Below the pieces are notes generated by a model that worked only from the letters and a program-made list of their open reading frames with translations, did no database searches and was not told where the DNA came from. Shown in pieces: positions 5,498-32,799 of a stretch of 64,000 nucleotides of DNA (the stretch's first letter is position 1; every line of letters begins with the position of its first letter). Source of the DNA: Bacteroidota bacterium (lineage in GTDB: Bacteria > Bacteroidota > Bacteroidia > Cytophagales > Cyclobacteriaceae); contig JACOSO010000086.1 of the NCBI GenBank assembly GCA_016178785.1, positions 1-64,000 of the forward strand, written 5' to 3'. Made by a program: the position numbers and the translations under genes.

Positions 5498-8446
5498 ATG
5501 AAAGTATCTGCTACACAGCCGTTTCAAATTATTTACTCGCTCTATCAGCACGAGTATTTGGGCTACGTATTTGAGTCTTTTATCGTGCACCTTGATGACA
5601 AGGGCAAACTAACTTACCAGCACCAAAGCATCTCTTCCAAAAACGCACGCGAGTTCACTAAAGGCCTTGACACGCGAGATTTTGAGCTGATCGAATTGAT
5701 GGATAGTATGGGCCAGGATGCCGTACTCAAGCATTTCTCAAAGAAAGTGATGAAGCCCGAAGAGTTTTTCAGCAAGGTTTATCACAAGCAAAAGGGAGAT
5801 GTCTTACTGCAAGAGCAGATTGAGGCGTACATGGAAAAAAGGAGGGCCGCTGCTCTTGAAAAAATGAAGGGCAAGTTGCTTTATGAGATGGGCAATGATG
5901 GTGAGCCTACGTGGCGAAAAGTAGAGGTACTCGAAGAGCGTGCCAACATTCAGTTTCACTTTATGAGGGGTGAGGATTCTACTAATTATTACCCAACGAT
6001 TTCATACAAAGGGAAAAAAGTAGAGATTCCCGATCCTGCCGCTTATCTCATTTGCCGACATCCCGCATGGATGGTGTTTAAGGGAAAATTGTACGGGTTC
6101 GAAAAATTTGTGGACGGCAAAAAACTGCAACCTTTTCTTGCAAAAAAATCCGTGGTCATTCCAAAAAATCTGGAAGAAACTTATTACAACCGTTTTGTTG
6201 CTCCCCTCATCGCATCGTTTGACGATATAGAGGCATCGGGTTTCGAAATTGCAAAACATGAATACGATCCTCATCCATTACTGACCATTTCAGAGTTGGC
6301 ACCTGCCATGGCAACCGAGGCGCCTTCCCTATTTGATCACCATAACGAAGCCGAAACTCCTGCCAATGACGAAGCGGGAAAAATTGTTTTTGATCTTTCG
6401 TTTCGTTATGGCAAAAACAAATTTCGTGGCGATGCTTTTGGGGGTGTTAGTGTAACAGTAGAAAAAAAAGAATCTGATTATGTTTTCCATCGCTTCAAAA
6501 GAAACATCGATGGAGAAAAAAAGTATGCTCAAACCTTGATGAAGCTCGGTTTACCATTGCGAGGGTTTCGCACGGCTGTCGACAAAGCTCATGCTTTCTC
6601 ATGGTTAAATGAAAACCGGGTGAACTTACTAAATCTTGGCTTTGAGGTGAGCCAACCCGACAACAAAGACAAAAAATATTTTGTAGGTAAAGCAGTGATC
6701 GAGCTGGAAGTAAAGGAGAACATTGATTGGTTTGATATCCACGCGAAGATCCGCTTTGGTGAGTTTGAAATCTCGTTCAAAGAATTGCGCAAACTCATTC
6801 TGAAAAAGAAAGTTGAATTCAAATTGCCAAACGGAGAGATCGCTATCATCCCGGAGGCATGGCTAATTAAGTACGGAGACCTTTTCGCATTAAGCGAAAC
6901 CCACGGCACCAATGAAAAACCCGTTCTAAAGAAACATCACATCAGTTTATTGCAGGAGCTGGAAGAGGGCAGGCTTGCGAAGGTGCACATGAGCGATCGC
7001 CTGCGTAACCTTCAATCGTTTACAGGTATTCGCGATTACGATTTGCCCAATGGCTTTCAGGGCACCCTTCGCCCTTATCAAAAAGCCGGCTATAACTGGC
7101 TTCGGTTCTTAAATGAATTTCATTTGGGCGGATGCTTGGCCGATGACATGGGTTTGGGTAAAACCGTGCAGACTTTAGCTCTATTACAGTCTGAAAAAGA
7201 AAAAGAGAATGCAGGCACCACTTTGCTAATAATGCCCACTTCGCTGATTTATAATTGGGAGATGGAAGCCGCCAAGTTCACGCCCGATTTAAAAATCTTT
7301 ACCTATACCGGAACCCTGCGCAACAAAGATGTTTCACAGTTTGAAAAATACGATGTAGTACTCACTTCATATGGCATTACTCGATTAGATATTGATAATC
7401 TTCTCAAATTTTATTTCAACTATATCATCCTGGACGAGTCGCAGGTAATCAAGAACCCGACTTCAAACATTGCGAAAGCAGTGTTGCAATTACAAAGCAG
7501 ATTCAGGCTAACGTTGACGGGCACACCACTTGAAAACACCACCATGGATTTGTGGTCGCAAATGACTTTCATTAATCCGGGGTTGCTTGGTGGGCAAACT
7601 TTTTTCAAAAATGAATATCAAATTCCGATTGAGAAAAAAGCGGATGAAGCGAAAACAAAAAAGCTTAACAGCATCATCAGGCCATTTGTGCTTCGAAGAT
7701 TGAAATCACAAGTGGCAACGGATCTTCCTGAAAAGGTGGAGAATATTCACTACACCAATATGACAACTGAGCAAGAGCAGAAGTACGAGGAAGTCAAATC
7801 GTTTTATAGACACAAGATACTTGACCAGATCGACAAAGAGGGGATCAATAATACGCGGATGATGATTTTAGAGGGTCTCACCAAGCTTCGCCAAATTTCC
7901 AATCACCCACGAATGATTGATATAAAATACTCAGGGGGATCTGGAAAGCTGGAAGATGTTTCGTTCATGATCGAGAACGCCATGCTTGAAGGTCACAAGC
8001 TTTTGATCTTTAGTCAGTTTGTAAAGCATCTTGATATTGTAAGAGAACTTTTAAAGGGCAGGAAAATCCCTTTTGCCTATTTGGATGGATCAAGCACCGA
8101 TCGCAAAGAACAAGTAGAGAAATTCAATAAAGATCCTGACCTTAAAATATTCTTGATTTCTATTAAGGCCGGTGGACTTGGTCTCAATTTGACGGAAGCG
8201 GATTATGTATTCATTCTCGACCCTTGGTGGAACCCTGCGGTAGAAGCGCAAGCAACTGACCGTGCTCATCGCATCGGGCAAAAGAAAAAAGTTTTCACAT
8301 ATAAATTCATTACACGAAATACGGTTGAAGAAAAAATTCTTCAGCTTCAAAAACATAAACTCAGGCTCTCAGAAAATCTGATTCAAAGTGAAGAAAGCGT
8401 GATCAAGGCCTTGACGCGTGAGGATATTGAAATGCTGATGAATTAA
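5498..8446 (+). CDS. SNF2-family DEAD/DEAH-box helicase
   Basis: A 982-residue SWI2/SNF2 ATPase. About 520 N-terminal residues contain no motif I recognise and in particular no Cys/His-rich SWIM zinc finger. The ATPase core then shows motif I DDMGLGKTVQT near 551, motif II DESQ near 645, motif III LTGTPLEN near 673 and motifs V-VI in AGGLGLNLTEADY and ATDRAHRIGQ near 895-930. Bacterial relatives translocate on duplex DNA or remodel protein-nucleic acid complexes, as RapA does on RNA polymerase, but the role of this subgroup is not defined. It lies 32 bases upstream of the SDR gene in the same direction. Confidence 0.92.
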   Translation: MKVSATQPFQIIYSLYQHEYLGYVFESFIVHLDDKGKLTYQHQSISSKNAREFTKGLDTRDFELIELMDSMGQDAVLKHFSKKVMKPEEFFSKVYHKQKGDVLLQEQIEAYMEKRRAAALEKMKGKLLYEMGNDGEPTWRKVEVLEERANIQFHFMRGEDSTNYYPTISYKGKKVEIPDPAAYLICRHPAWMVFKGKLYGFEKFVDGKKLQPFLAKKSVVIPKNLEETYYNRFVAPLIASFDDIEASGFEIAKHEYDPHPLLTISELAPAMATEAPSLFDHHNEAETPANDEAGKIVFDLSFRYGKNKFRGDAFGGVSVTVEKKESDYVFHRFKRNIDGEKKYAQTLMKLGLPLRGFRTAVDKAHAFSWLNENRVNLLNLGFEVSQPDNKDKKYFVGKAVIELEVKENIDWFDIHAKIRFGEFEISFKELRKLILKKKVEFKLPNGEIAIIPEAWLIKYGDLFALSETHGTNEKPVLKKHHISLLQELEEGRLAKVHMSDRLRNLQSFTGIRDYDLPNGFQGTLRPYQKAGYNWLRFLNEFHLGGCLADDMGLGKTVQTLALLQSEKEKENAGTTLLIMPTSLIYNWEMEAAKFTPDLKIFTYTGTLRNKDVSQFEKYDVVLTSYGITRLDIDNLLKFYFNYIILDESQVIKNPTSNIAKAVLQLQSRFRLTLTGTPLENTTMDLWSQMTFINPGLLGGQTFFKNEYQIPIEKKADEAKTKKLNSIIRPFVLRRLKSQVATDLPEKVENIHYTNMTTEQEQKYEEVKSFYRHKILDQIDKEGINNTRMMILEGLTKLRQISNHPRMIDIKYSGGSGKLEDVSFMIENAMLEGHKLLIFSQFVKHLDIVRELLKGRKIPFAYLDGSSTDRKEQVEKFNKDPDLKIFLISIKAGGLGLNLTEADYVFILDPWWNPAVEAQATDRAHRIGQKKKVFTYKFITRNTVEEKILQLQKHKLRLSENLIQSEESVIKALTREDIEMLMN

Positions 8447-8478
8447 ATTTCTATTTTCAAAATAATTTAAAATAAATA

Positions 8479-9285
8479 ATGAAGGATAAAGTAATCGTTA
8501 TCACCGGTGGATCTTCGGGAATTGGCAAAGCATTGGCGGAAGTATTTGGAAAAAACGGATCTAAAATTTTAATCACCGGAAGAAGCCAGGCAGATCTTGA
8601 TCTGGCCGTGGCAGACTTAAAACAAAAGGGGATTTTGGTCGAAAGCTTCAAGGGCGATGTAAGTGTTGTGGAAGACAATAAAAAAATGGCTACCGAGGCG
8701 TTGCGTTTGTTCGGAAGAATTGATGTACTCGTCAACAATGCTGGCATCACCATGCGTGCACTTTTCAGTGAATTGGATTTGAGCGTAGTGAAAAAGGTGA
8801 TGGATATTAATTTTTTCGGTGTGCTCTATGCTACTCAAGCTTGTCTTCCTGAGATCATGAAGAATAACGGAAGCATTATTGGCATTTCATCCATCGCTGG
8901 TTTTCGTGGTCTGCCTGAACGAACAGGATATTGTGCTTCAAAGTTTGCACTGAACGGCTTCCTCGAAGTATTGCGCACAGAAATGCTTCACCAAGGAGTG
9001 CACGTACTTACAGCCGCACCCGGATTCACGTCATCAAACATTCGTAAAAAAGCGCTTACTAAAGACGGAAGCGCTCAAGGCGAATCTCCCAGCGATGAAG
9101 AAAAAATGATGACAGCTGCAGAATGCGCGCAGCACATTTATGGGGCAACAGTGAAGCGCAAAAACTTTTTGATTTTAACAGCACAAGGTAAAGCTGCAGT
9201 CTGGATCAATAAACTTTTCCCGAGGCTTGCTGATAAACTCGTTTACAAAACAATGGCGAAGGAGGCTGATTCGCCTTTGAAGTAA
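8479..9285 (+). CDS. SDR-family NAD(P)-dependent oxidoreductase
   Basis: A 268-residue classical short-chain dehydrogenase/reductase. The cofactor-binding TGGSSGIGKA lies at residues 8-17, the structural NNAG at 86-89, and the catalytic triad is Ser in GISSIAG near 137 with Tyr and Lys in GYCASK near 151-155. The length and the C-terminal hydrophobic segment (AVWINKLFPRLADKL) resemble the DHRS7B-like/DltE-type subgroup often linked to lipid substrates, but the substrate is unknown. It follows the SNF2 helicase gene closely and is convergent with the DUF3857 gene, with one base between the two stop codons. Confidence 0.9.
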   Translation: MKDKVIVITGGSSGIGKALAEVFGKNGSKILITGRSQADLDLAVADLKQKGILVESFKGDVSVVEDNKKMATEALRLFGRIDVLVNNAGITMRALFSELDLSVVKKVMDINFFGVLYATQACLPEIMKNNGSIIGISSIAGFRGLPERTGYCASKFALNGFLEVLRTEMLHQGVHVLTAAPGFTSSNIRKKALTKDGSAQGESPSDEEKMMTAAECAQHIYGATVKRKNFLILTAQGKAAVWINKLFPRLADKLVYKTMAKEADSPLK

Positions 9286-9286
9286 A

Positions 9287-11188
9287 TCAGGTTTTGTTTA
9301 GAAATACAAGTTTAGTGTTGTCGGCCTTGCTCACGTTTTTGTAAAAATCAACAAGTTCATTGTAAGTTTCCTTTGGGAAACGACCTTTCCATACTTTCAT
9401 TTTTCTGATGTAAGTAACTTTTCCTGCATCAAATTTGAAACTTGCCTCGTACTCGCCAAACCTGGAATTTATTTTTATAGGTTCGGGTAAGAATTCGGGA
9501 TAGATGTTTTCTGGAAGGGAAATTTTAATTGTATCTAGGTCAAGATAATCTGATTGAAGAACCACATCCGTTTTTCTTTCCTCCGTCTTTGGTGGAACAT
9601 ATGAATTCTTGTTCATCAAATTAGGAGAAACAAAAAGCCGCTTTCCACTAACCGATGCGTAGCGACTAAGCGTTAAATCAAGGTTGACAATTGCGGACGG
9701 AATTTTGTCCTTTTTTTCTGTCATCGAAAATGAATTGATATTGAAGTTCGGAACTTCGGTATTTCTCTCAATCCACTTCCGTTGATTTTCTGTATTGCTT
9801 AACGCGGAGTTCAAACCCCCATTTTCATACTGTATTCCTGTATGGGTTGTTTTTATTAATGCTTTGGCATTTCCGGTTGCGTCAATGTATATGTAAGCAG
9901 TTCTGCTTTGTAAATTATCTTCAGGTTTGTAACGAATAGTTTTTACAACGCTTGCCCCAGCATTCGTGATCATTAGCGCTTTTCTGTCCCCGGTAAATTT
10001 TCCCTGATAGTCGAATGGGTTTGTCTGGCTTGTGCACTCCAACCAAAGTGTATCTTTTCCGTTGGGTACGGCAGTTATGGCATGGTTAAATTGAGTGCTC
10101 GGAAAATCTATATTAAAAGAAGTACCAGCGCCAGCATTAATCAAAACATAATTTGCTGTTATGCCCGCCTCTTTGCAAAGTGCAACCATATAATTTGAAA
10201 GTGCCTTGCAATCTCCATATCCATTTTTGTCTACAACGGAGGCTTCAAATGGTTGATAGCCTCCTATTCCCAATTGAATTCCAACATATCGAGTTTTATT
10301 CTGCATGTATTCATACAGCGCTTTAACTTTTTCTTCGGTGGTTTTTAGTACTGAAGTAATAGACTTTACTTTTGCTTTTGTCTCATCGGGTAACACATCT
10401 CTTCCCTTATTGAGAGAGATTATCCATTGACCAAACTCTTGCCAGGAATCCATTTTGCCTGCGTACCCTTCAAATTCAAACTGGGAAGGCGCAGCAATTA
10501 TATGAGGAATTATTTCAGACCTGGGCGGGCCAAATGATTCTAATTTGATTGGCTTAATGTTTTCAAATGTCCAGGTAAGAGTTTCAAAACCCGATCCTAA
10601 TAATTTTCTTGGAGCCGCTTCAATGTTAAAGAGTTTAAATCTCGGTGCTATCGCAGGTGGGTAGGAAAGCTCATAAGAAGCATGCTGGTAAGAAATATTT
10701 TCACCGCCCCACCAGGAACTTGGTATGTAGTATAAAAATTTATATTCCAACACATACTCAAATTCTACAGTATAAGGATAGATGGATTGCGAAAGGTCTA
10801 TCGATTTAATCCTGTCGTCACTAAATAATGTAAAGCCATCATAAGAGGCGTGATCATATACTTCCTTATCTTTTAATTTCTTTACCACATTGCCTTGTGC
10901 ATCGTAGACTGCTCCACTTAAATTGACAATTCTAGTAAGCTTATCATACCAAACATCATGGCTGGCATAGTCTTTCCCTTTTTCGTTAAGAATTGTGACT
11001 ACATAATGAACATAGTGAGTGGCCCTGTTCTTCTCAAGAATTTTAAACTTCACGTGATCTTCTCTCACCACTACATTTGCGTTCTCTTTTAATTCGGCAG
11101 GAACAGCACTAATAGGATATTTGGGATCATCTTTGGCTGTAAGCTGAATCGAAAAGAGTAAACCGGTAATAGTCAAAATCCTTATCAT
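9287..11188 (-). CDS. Secreted DUF3857/transglutaminase-like protein (intact Cys-His)
   Basis: A 633-residue exported protein: a signal peptide in residues 1-18, an N-terminal DUF3857 domain and a central transglutaminase-like domain. The candidate catalytic Cys is in YGDCKALS near 326 and the His in FNHAI near 368, followed by LWLECTSQTNPF where the third residue of the triad would be. The C-terminal part is beta-rich. Families of this architecture are frequent in Bacteroidota; their reaction (protease, amidase or cross-linking) is not established. The gene begins 8 bases after the stop of a second DUF3857 gene, so the two form one transcription unit reading leftward. Confidence 0.85.
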   Translation of the reverse strand: MIRILTITGLLFSIQLTAKDDPKYPISAVPAELKENANVVVREDHVKFKILEKNRATHYVHYVVTILNEKGKDYASHDVWYDKLTRIVNLSGAVYDAQGNVVKKLKDKEVYDHASYDGFTLFSDDRIKSIDLSQSIYPYTVEFEYVLEYKFLYYIPSSWWGGENISYQHASYELSYPPAIAPRFKLFNIEAAPRKLLGSGFETLTWTFENIKPIKLESFGPPRSEIIPHIIAAPSQFEFEGYAGKMDSWQEFGQWIISLNKGRDVLPDETKAKVKSITSVLKTTEEKVKALYEYMQNKTRYVGIQLGIGGYQPFEASVVDKNGYGDCKALSNYMVALCKEAGITANYVLINAGAGTSFNIDFPSTQFNHAITAVPNGKDTLWLECTSQTNPFDYQGKFTGDRKALMITNAGASVVKTIRYKPEDNLQSRTAYIYIDATGNAKALIKTTHTGIQYENGGLNSALSNTENQRKWIERNTEVPNFNINSFSMTEKKDKIPSAIVNLDLTLSRYASVSGKRLFVSPNLMNKNSYVPPKTEERKTDVVLQSDYLDLDTIKISLPENIYPEFLPEPIKINSRFGEYEASFKFDAGKVTYIRKMKVWKGRFPKETYNELVDFYKNVSKADNTKLVFLNKT

Positions 11189-30048: not shown

Positions 30049-30453
30049 GTGAAAAACATCAGCATTCAAATTCCATCTCTTTCCGAAAACATCCGGATTA
30101 TTGAGAGCTTCATAGACAATGCCAAGGAGAAGTATCGGCTCAATGACGATATCTATGGCAACATTATGATCGCTGTAACAGAAGCGGTAAACAATGCCAT
30201 TAGGCACGGCAATAAAGACAACTCCTCTAAAAACGTTACCCTTTCTCTTTCATTGGAAGATGGGCTCATAAAATTCAAGGTTCAAGATGAAGGCGATGGC
30301 TTTAATTATCATCATCTCCCAGACCCAACCGCACCCGAAAACATTTCAAAACCAGGAGGAAGAGGAATATTTCTAATGAAGCATCTTTCTGACGAAGTTG
30401 ATTTCAAGGAAAATGGCAAGGTGGTTGAGCTAAGCTTTTACATGAATGCCTAA
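30049..30453 (+). CDS. RsbW-like ATP-binding protein (serine kinase/anti-sigma type)
   Basis: A 134-residue GHKL ATPase-fold protein of the RsbW/SpoIIAB type. The N box is EAVNNAIRHGN near residues 45-55, the G1 box DEGDGF near 81 and the G2 box GGRGIFLMKHL near 104. It starts at a GTG just after the DUF4175 stop; no ATG lies near the conserved N-terminus. Relatives phosphorylate anti-anti-sigma factors, but no STAS-domain partner or sigma factor is nearby, so its target is unknown. Its stop overlaps the ybeY start in TAATG. Confidence 0.85.
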   Translation: MKNISIQIPSLSENIRIIESFIDNAKEKYRLNDDIYGNIMIAVTEAVNNAIRHGNKDNSSKNVTLSLSLEDGLIKFKVQDEGDGFNYHHLPDPTAPENISKPGGRGIFLMKHLSDEVDFKENGKVVELSFYMNA

Positions 30454-30893
30454 TGCCTATTCGATTCTTTTGCGAAGAAATCGAATTCAAAATTTCAAAC
30501 CCGAAGAAGGTCAAAGATTGGCTAAGACAATCTGCCAGTCGTGAAAGAAGGGAAATAGGGGAGATCAATTATGTCTTTTGTTCCGACCAATATCTTCTTA
30601 AGCTCAATCAACAATATCTAAATCATAAGACCCTTACAGACATTATCACGTTTGATTATTCAGAGGGAAAAACTGTTTCTGGTGAAATCTACATGAGTAT
30701 TGAAAGAGTGACTGAAAACTCTGCAAAATTTGGCTGTGAATTTGAAGATGAGTTGCACAGAGTTATGATACATGGAGCCCTCCACCTATGCGGATACAAA
30801 GACAAAAGCTCGTCAGATAAAACTCTAATGCGCAAAAAGGAAGATGCTTACCTATCTTTACGAAAAAAAGTGTTCCACGTGAAACGATCCTAA
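30453..30893 (+). CDS. ybeY: Endoribonuclease YbeY (rRNA maturation factor)
   Basis: A 146-residue YbeY, a metal-dependent single-strand RNase for 16S rRNA 3' maturation and ribosome quality control. The zinc motif reads HGALHLCGYKD, with H107 and H111 intact and Asp at the third position instead of the usual His; I recall this variant from other Bacteroidota, so it probably does not mean loss of function. The start codon shares a base with the preceding stop (TAATG). The last codons (FHVKR) are the translated form of a parS site that overlaps the gene's 3' end. Confidence 0.92.
   Translation: MPIRFFCEEIEFKISNPKKVKDWLRQSASRERREIGEINYVFCSDQYLLKLNQQYLNHKTLTDIITFDYSEGKTVSGEIYMSIERVTENSAKFGCEFEDELHRVMIHGALHLCGYKDKSSSDKTLMRKKEDAYLSLRKKVFHVKRS
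30871..30886. other. parS centromere-like site 1 (ParB binding)
   Basis: TGTTCCACGTGAAACG. It matches the widely conserved bacterial parS consensus TGTTNCACGTGAAACA at every position except the last base. It lies inside the 3' end of ybeY and is translated as FHVKR. A second copy lies 39 bases downstream. ParB-CTP clamps load at such sites to segregate the origin region. Confidence 0.88.
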
Positions 30894-30909
30894 GCATGGC
30901 TTGGTTCTG

Positions 30910-30925
30910 TGTTCCACGTGAAACC
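30910..30925. other. parS centromere-like site 2 (ParB binding)
   Basis: TGTTCCACGTGAAACC, a second copy in the same orientation, identical to the first over 15 bases and differing only in the final one. It lies in the 43-base gap between ybeY and mnmG, 11 bases before the mnmG ATG, so ParB binding could also affect mnmG expression. Confidence 0.88.
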
Positions 30926-30936
30926 TAAAAAATCGA

Positions 30937-32799
30937 ATGTTTCCTGAATATGATGTTATAGTTGTTGGTGCTGGACATGCTGGCTGTGAAGCTGCTGCTG
31001 CTGCTGCTAATATGGGTTCCAAGGTTCTATTGGTTACAATGAACATGCAGACTATTGGTCAAATGTCATGTAATCCTGCAATGGGAGGGGTGGCTAAGGG
31101 GCAGATCGTTAGAGAGATTGATGCACTAGGTGGATATTCTGGGATCGTTTCAGATAAGTCGATGATCCAATTTAGGATGCTTAATCGCTCCAAGGGGCCC
31201 GCCATGTGGAGCCCAAGAACTCAGAATGATAGGGCCAGATTTGCAGAAGAGTGGCGATTGGCACTTGAAAGAACACCAAACGTAGATTTCTGGCAAGAGA
31301 TTGTCTCTGGTCTCGTTATCAAAAATGGAAGAGTAGTCGGAGTAAAAACCGGCCTTGGTTTGGAAATCAATGGAAAATCGGTGGTACTTACTAACGGAAC
31401 TTTCTTAAACGGCAAAATTCATATTGGCGAGAAAAACTTTGGCGGTGGCAGAACAGCTGAAAAAGCCGCTACAGGAATTACCGAACAGTTAATCGAAATA
31501 GGGTTCGAATCAGGAAGGATGAAGACGGGAACCCCTCCTAGGGTGGATGGAAGGTCTTTGAATTATCAATTAATGGCAGAACAACCTGGCGATGAAAACC
31601 CAGGCAAGTTTTCATATACTTCTACATCTCCTCTTGAAAAGCAACAAAGCTGTTGGATTACATATACCAATGAGGAAGTCCACTCTGTCCTTGAAACTGG
31701 GTTTGACAAATCACCTATGTTCCAAGGGAGAATCAAGGGGCTTGGACCCAGGTACTGCCCTTCAATTGAGGATAAAATCAATCGCTTTGCTGATCGTGAA
31801 AGACATCAAATATTTGTAGAACCTGAGGGGTGGAGTACGATCGAGGTATATGTAAATGGGTTTTCCACTTCACTACCTGAAAATATTCAGTATAGCGCTC
31901 TTAAAAAGATACCAGGGTTCGAAAATGTGAGGATGTTCCGGCCAGGCTATGCTATTGAGTATGATTTCTTTCCACCAACTCAATTAAAGACTTCTTTAGA
32001 AACACAACTAATTGATAATCTGTATTTTGCAGGCCAAATTAATGGCACAACCGGTTATGAAGAAGCTGCTTGCCAGGGTCTGATGGCCGGCATCAATGCA
32101 CATAATAAAGTGCATAATAAAGAGCCATTTGTCTTAAAAAGATCGGAGGCTTACATAGGCGTACTGATCGATGATCTTGTCAATAAGGGTACTCAAGAGC
32201 CCTATAGAATGTTTACTAGTCGTGCTGAGTATAGAATCCTGCTTCGTCAGGACAATGCAGATCTTCGATTGACCGAGCTCGGCTCCAAAATTGGATTGGC
32301 TAGCGAAGAGAGATACAATTGTGTTCAAAACAAAAGAAAAGAAATTCAAGCCCTATTGGGCGAGCTTAAAAACTTGCGTGCAATTCCTCAAGAAGTGAAT
32401 GAGGGGTTAACTTCTTTGAACACCTCATCCTTAGAGGAAAAAATTCCCTTGATCAATCTTCTTAAAAGACCTGAGGTTGGAATTAAAGAATTGAAAAACC
32501 TGAATACTGATATCGGAAGAACATTAAATAAATATTCCGAAGAAGTCTTGGAGCAAGCAGAAATAATAGTGAAGTACGAACCATACATAGACCGTGAGCA
32601 AAAGCTCGCTGAAAAAATTGAGAGCTTGGAAGACTACAAAATCAAACCCGACTTTGATTATGACCGCGTGAAAGCTTTGTCTTCAGAAGCGCGTGAAAAA
32701 TTGAAAAAGATCAAACCCGAAACGATTGGGCAGATGTCGCGCATTAGCGGTGTGTCTCCTGCAGATGTTTCAGTATTAAGTGTTTATTTGGGCAAATGA
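30937..32799 (+). CDS. mnmG: tRNA uridine-5-carboxymethylaminomethyl modification enzyme MnmG (GidA)
   Basis: A 620-residue MnmG, which with MnmE adds the carboxymethylaminomethyl group to wobble uridine 34 of several tRNAs, using FAD, NADH and methylene-tetrahydrofolate. The FAD-binding VVGAGHAGCEAAAAAANMG is at the N-terminus. The blocks MSCNPAMGGVAKG and GRMKTGTPPRVDGRS are the GidA signatures, and the helical C-terminal domain that binds MnmE and tRNA is complete (to RISGVSPADVSVLSVYLG). The two parS sites just upstream recall the frequent linkage of gidA with chromosome origins. The stop overlaps the next start in ATGA. Confidence 0.97.
   Translation: MFPEYDVIVVGAGHAGCEAAAAAANMGSKVLLVTMNMQTIGQMSCNPAMGGVAKGQIVREIDALGGYSGIVSDKSMIQFRMLNRSKGPAMWSPRTQNDRARFAEEWRLALERTPNVDFWQEIVSGLVIKNGRVVGVKTGLGLEINGKSVVLTNGTFLNGKIHIGEKNFGGGRTAEKAATGITEQLIEIGFESGRMKTGTPPRVDGRSLNYQLMAEQPGDENPGKFSYTSTSPLEKQQSCWITYTNEEVHSVLETGFDKSPMFQGRIKGLGPRYCPSIEDKINRFADRERHQIFVEPEGWSTIEVYVNGFSTSLPENIQYSALKKIPGFENVRMFRPGYAIEYDFFPPTQLKTSLETQLIDNLYFAGQINGTTGYEEAACQGLMAGINAHNKVHNKEPFVLKRSEAYIGVLIDDLVNKGTQEPYRMFTSRAEYRILLRQDNADLRLTELGSKIGLASEERYNCVQNKRKEIQALLGELKNLRAIPQEVNEGLTSLNTSSLEEKIPLINLLKRPEVGIKELKNLNTDIGRTLNKYSEEVLEQAEIIVKYEPYIDREQKLAEKIESLEDYKIKPDFDYDRVKALSSEAREKLKKIKPETIGQMSRISGVSPADVSVLSVYLGK

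Follow-up and report, generated by a model that had tools for sequence, protein, structure and literature searches.

Well-supported parS sites at the ybeY-mnmG junction of a Cyclobacteriaceae bacterium and the linkage of parS to mnmG in sampled genomes of its class

A gidA-gidB-parA-parB cluster is found at the origin in Proteobacteria and Firmicutes, and the locus described here resembles it in having mnmG (gidA) near parS, but differs from it in that parAB lies on another contig. The closest described element is the parS of chromosomal ParABS systems, as presented for Bacillus subtilis and Caulobacter in passages of PMC7333895, with which our locus shares the palindromic consensus, few and clustered copies, ParA and ParB encoded in the same genome, and conservation across species. 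Unlike in those two organisms, the sites are located at ybeY-mnmG, on a contig that carries neither parB nor dnaA; in our locus and the ten MnmG loci closest to it the palindrome often lacks its outer T/A pair, and the ParB carries the motif GERRFQA. According to passages of PMC10197239, clustered parS sites are located at the origin in the 12 gut species of the OMM12 set, two of which are Bacteroidetes, and the position of dnaA is not systematically that of the origin. Our locus is similar to these in its clustered parS, probably near an origin that is not systematically at dnaA, while mnmG, which adjoins the sites here, is unmentioned in the same passages.

The window (the whole stretch of DNA that was analysed, 64,000 nucleotides in length) carries two sites in direct orientation on the forward strand, 39 bases from start to start. 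Site 1, TGTTCCACGTGAAACG, at 30871-30886, overlaps the last codons of ybeY (30453-30893, forward strand; rRNA maturation RNase, TIGR00043 and PF02130), whose product ends in VFHVKRS, while site 2, TGTTCCACGTGAAACC, at 30910-30925, ends 11 bases 5' of the ATG at 30937 with which mnmG (gidA; 30937-32799, forward strand; TIGR00136 and PF01134) begins; in most relatives examined the sites also adjoin mnmG. Against the parS consensus used, TGTTNCACGTGNAACA (16 bp, 14 specified positions plus N), each site agrees in 13 of the 14 specified positions, or in 15 of 16 when N is scored as a match, and the only mismatch of each is the last base. The first-pass annotation had described two direct copies at 15 of 16 consensus positions and 39 bases apart, one inside the 3' end of ybeY (as FHVKR) and the other 11 bases ahead of the mnmG start, and both the reading of the sequence and the pattern search bear this out. 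Directly 5' of ybeY, at 30049-30453, there is an RsbW-like anti-sigma ATPase-domain protein, with a score under the cut-off of the model.

In the draft genome (4,469,967 bases in 100 contigs), the exact motif TGTTNCACGTGNAAC is present in just these two copies, so the whole-genome search that had been proposed as a check returned no scattered copies, and the pattern is the one known for parS, i.e., few copies which are clustered. Given the base composition of the window, the core 14-mer GTTYCACGTGRAAC would be expected 0.055 times in 4.47 Mb, while two copies are observed, both at this junction, which agrees with the earlier statement that a chance origin of the duplicated match is negligible; the reversed control pattern has no copy in this draft genome. 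A search of the window with three mismatches allowed (3 found, 2.96 expected) was too loose to inform, and the signal consists of the two one-mismatch sites.

The first-pass annotation had named the lack of parAB as an outcome that would speak against parS, and both genes are present. A profile search returned a single ParB match in the genome (TIGR00180, 184 bits), on contig C98, corresponding to positions 1384-2280 of locus L031, with the domains PF02195, PF17762 and PF23552; thus a cognate ParB with ParB_N, HTH_ParB and dimerisation domains is encoded, and it matches solved ParB/Spo0J chains with E values down to 1.1e-51. A ParA of 257 aa (PF13614) is encoded immediately ahead of parB on the same contig. 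Taken as a whole, the best explanation is that both sites are chromosomal parS, loading sites for the ParB encoded elsewhere in the genome (probability roughly 0.93), and the parS identity of both is well supported.

The motif is conserved as DNA. In an alignment of nine loci (9 of 11; L039 and L040, whose sites are 88 bp from each other, were excluded) both 14-mers vary at Y/R positions only, while the spacer that separates them (30887-30909 in the window) has no invariant column. The core motif was found in 133 of 148 genomes of the class sample versus 6 of 148 for the reversed control. In the phylum sample, where the motif was counted only and mnmG was located within the class, 111 of 118 genomes carry it, and 6 of 118 the control. 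Copy number is 1-4 in 129 of the 133 motif-bearing class genomes, with 25 having a single copy. The exact motif is missing from 15 class genomes. In 13 of these a copy with one mismatch is found no more than 2.5 kb from mnmG, and of the 36 one-mismatch copies in the 15 genomes, 22 are within that distance; since the genome-wide count of such copies (36) is no higher than that of the reversed control (35), it is only their position that is informative.

Site 1 could be retained because it encodes a functional C-terminal peptide of YbeY, since it is in frame here and reads FHVKR, with FHVKH given by one relative (L038). However, among the 54 loci in which the ybeY motif was recognised within 2 kb upstream (of 81 examined, the window included) the site overlaps ybeY in five only, and in all three frames; the FHVKR overlap is therefore incidental, and we rejected this explanation.

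Of 52 genomes, namely the motif-bearing class genomes (of 133) that had sites among the matches listed and mnmG located, 51 have at least one exact site no farther than 2.5 kb from mnmG; 11 further genomes with listed sites fall outside this count, G012, in which no mnmG was found, and ten not searched for mnmG. The 52 genomes have 119 exact sites in total, 103 of which are at most 2.5 kb from mnmG, with 55 upstream, 6 inside and 42 downstream of the gene. The 16 remaining sites comprise nine in G030 and five in G088 (near contig ends or starts in both), one in G122 on a contig other than that of mnmG, and one in G051, 25.5 kb away. The linkage to mnmG is thus class-wide within the sample, though it is not universal: in 15 of 80 MnmG loci no exact motif is found in the stretch that runs from 1.5 kb upstream of the start of mnmG to 3.4 kb downstream of it, some flanks being short, and nine of these loci have Saprospiraceae in their titles. 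Of 32 parS-bearing loci (most of 3 kb, from the order), 24 show MnmG, one of them through a partial match, and eight, including that of G289, show none. In titles and the beginnings of abstracts, with the main survey (Livny et al. 2007) left apart, we found no description of mnmG-linked parS in Bacteroidetes, and a prior report is possible.

Two further arrangements were observed. In most of the loci L069-L110, the majority of which are from Chryseobacterium, mnmG is flanked by two parS copies, one ahead of the gene and one shortly behind it. The genome G030 (L323, L324, L325 and L326) has tandem parS arrays with a 99-bp period at contig ends (6.3 units in L323, 2.7 units in L324), one array being on the mnmG contig. 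Two more contig ends of this genome carry single copies, and the search for a TIGR00180 ParB found none in it.

It is also conceivable that the repeats act as an RNA element, the two copies pairing in the ybeY-mnmG transcript and regulating mnmG. The region folds somewhat better than its shuffles (z of -2.03; 5 of 200 shuffles do equally well), the two sites are paired with each other in the fold, and a terminator-like hairpin lies within the spacer; in addition, symmetric Y/R pairs (T-A 83, C-G 32) are more frequent than asymmetric ones (C-A 19, T-G 17) over 151 sites, although a palindromic protein site predicts the same, and pairing is possible for any two palindromic copies. The spacer, with no invariant column over the nine loci, is not conserved, and for that reason we judge such an element very unlikely; the sites inside and downstream of mnmG in relatives (6 and 42 of 103) and the 25 of 133 motif-bearing class genomes with a single copy also argue against it.

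If both sites are parS, the motif and ParB may be expected to be lost together. In the order sample of 59 genomes, canonical ParB was found in 50, while three (family f93) have only weak ParB-like matches and six have none. Of the 50 ParB-positive genomes, 42 carry the exact motif, versus two of the nine genomes without canonical ParB (Fisher p = 5e-4, a value that overstates independence since the genomes are related), so that eight ParB-positive genomes have no exact motif. Both canonical ParB and the exact motif are missing from all four genomes of family f81 (G247, G265, G280, G294) and all three of family f93 (G259, G275, G290), seven genomes which represent two lineages and not seven independent cases. 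The two motif-bearing order genomes without canonical ParB, G270 and G277, are 89% and 84% complete. In the class sample, a ParB match was found in 146 of 148 genomes and was over the cut-off in 145, and the remaining three (G021, G030, G108) carry the motif. With double absence in the order but exceptions in the class, the test of co-absence leans towards ParB, though not cleanly.

The same data bear on whether another CACGTG-binding factor, or a Noc-like paralogue, uses the site in place of ParB. The core includes CACGTG, and the ParB of this genome matches the Noc model TIGR04285 with 234 bits; however, the search of the genome yielded one TIGR00180 protein, and the two families without canonical ParB are also without the motif, which leaves such a factor highly improbable. 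Separately, a Noc identity of the ParB was rejected, as its score is lower than the cut-off of 315.

The first-pass annotation had also placed the window near the replication origin. While the parS identity on which this was based is strongly supported, the origin part is likely but indirect. The proposed comparison of the cluster with GC skew and parAB could be made in part: parAB is on another contig, and within the window there is no clear GC3-skew switch, GC skew inside it being uninformative. Likewise, there is no cluster of DnaA boxes in the window (two exact boxes, five by a relaxed pattern). The contig of the window, C80 (289,174 bases), carries neither the ParB match nor the single DnaA match of the genome, which is on contig C72.

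For six single-contig relatives, 6 of the 12 single-contig genomes encountered, the origin was fitted by a two-breakpoint model of gene-strand-corrected GC3 skew on sampled stretches, with 60 permutations. The distance from skew origin to parS, as a fraction of the genome, is 0.113 in G115 (p = 0.016), 0.050 in G144 (p = 0.016), 0.015 in G130 (p = 0.033), 0.147 in G095 (p = 0.049; its sites are one-mismatch copies) and 0.110 in G289 (p = 0.164, not significant; mnmG was not seen in its 3-kb parS locus), while G035 (0.420, p = 0.082) is opposite, its fitted terminus coinciding with parS. It can be seen that in five of the six (one not significant) the skew origin is located 1.5-14.7% of the genome from parS. 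A finer, earlier fit of five genomes gave 0.122 (G115), 0.066 (G144), 0.002 (G130), 0.155 (G095) and 0.413 (G035), with the same exception. Additionally, on the 780-kb mnmG contig of G134, which belongs to the same genus as our organism, an origin-type switch is found at 325 kb and parS at 493 kb (p = 0.010, 200 permutations).

The sites could be parS and the window still not be close to oriC in this organism. The window without a DnaA-box cluster or clear skew switch, dnaA and parB on other contigs, and the opposite skew of G035 are consistent with this, but five of the six single-contig relatives and the same-genus contig put the skew switch on the side of parS. Clustered parS at the origin in the passages of PMC10197239 points in the same direction, though the origins there were placed by parS clusters and GC skew, with read coverage in support. 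We consider a location away from oriC unlikely, and, by analogy with the relatives, the region of the window is probably close to the origin in this genome.

The positions of dnaA and parB differ from that of parS in most of these genomes. In G115, G144, G130 and G095 the distance from parS to dnaA is 0.20-0.38 and to parB 0.23-0.44 of the genome, while in G035 it is 0.004 and 0.076, respectively. In 18 genomes searched for both, parB and mnmG are on one contig in nine and are then at least 300 kb apart; G035 is the only one of the 18 with dnaA no more than 16 kb from mnmG. With regard to the gidA-gidB-parA-parB cluster, parS, mnmG and parB are within approximately 4 kb in two of the three sampled genomes of family f99. 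In one of them, G281 (a 1.19-Mb genome; L327), parB (5510-6412), parA (6435-7256), mnmG (7504-9369) and parS (9385) are contiguous; in G266, mnmG adjoins parS and parB is about 3.2 kb from parS; in the third genome, G295, parS and parB are on different contigs.

The element is thus of a known kind, and what is less ordinary is that parS is anchored to mnmG, and not to parAB or dnaA, together with a Gln variant in the CTP-binding motif of ParB. That motif reads GERRFQA here versus GERRxRA, with the last Arg replaced by Gln and GERR intact (alignment of 18 rows, with L114 and L126 scored as gaps). In 30 order genomes, the best 30 of 53 with a ParB match and hence nearer to this ParB, GERRxQA is present in 22, GERRxKA in three and GERRxRA in five. 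According to passages of PMC8367383, Caulobacter ParB binds CTP weakly or not at all when R103 or R104 is replaced by alanine; the residue substituted in our ParB corresponds in motif position to the second one after R104, and the mutants described in those passages do not include it.

The window and the ten closest MnmG loci retain the outer T/A in 20 of their 46 half-sites, and the 70 more distant MnmG loci in 243 of 256, both counts being uncorrected for relatedness. In 14 order genomes for which both ParB and parS are known (a subset of the 30 best-matching), those with Gln-ParB have the outer T in 23 of 42 half-sites, those with Arg-ParB in 13 of 14 and those with Lys-ParB in one of two; both Arg-ParB genomes are from one family, and the lineages in this comparison are not independent. 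G292 and G251, with Gln-ParB and strict sites, are exceptions. To hypothesize, the Gln-ParB may be linked with relaxed parS.

From what is known of ParABS, a ParB dimer would bind each palindrome by its HTH domain, after which the bound ParB would close as a CTP-dependent clamp and slide to the flanking DNA. ParA would then move the ParB-covered ybeY-mnmG region, with the proposed result of early segregation of that part of the chromosome, and the mnmG neighbourhood would be the location of the centromere in most sampled genomes of the class. A broader proposal, which we put forward very tentatively and hold to be doubtful, is a class-wide (perhaps phylum-wide) centromere at mnmG, uncoupled from dnaA and parAB, with mnmG-parS marking the origin region, and, in the order, a Gln-ParB which goes with loss of the outer T/A as a natural ParB-parS variant with altered loading.

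In most class genomes tested dnaA is a poor marker of the origin, and six single-contig genomes do not prove an origin rule. The natural Gln variant of ParB is a candidate for the study of CTP-dependent clamping, and parS beside mnmG is an easily searched sequence mark of the centromere region in a large class, which can be applied to draft genomes and MAGs.
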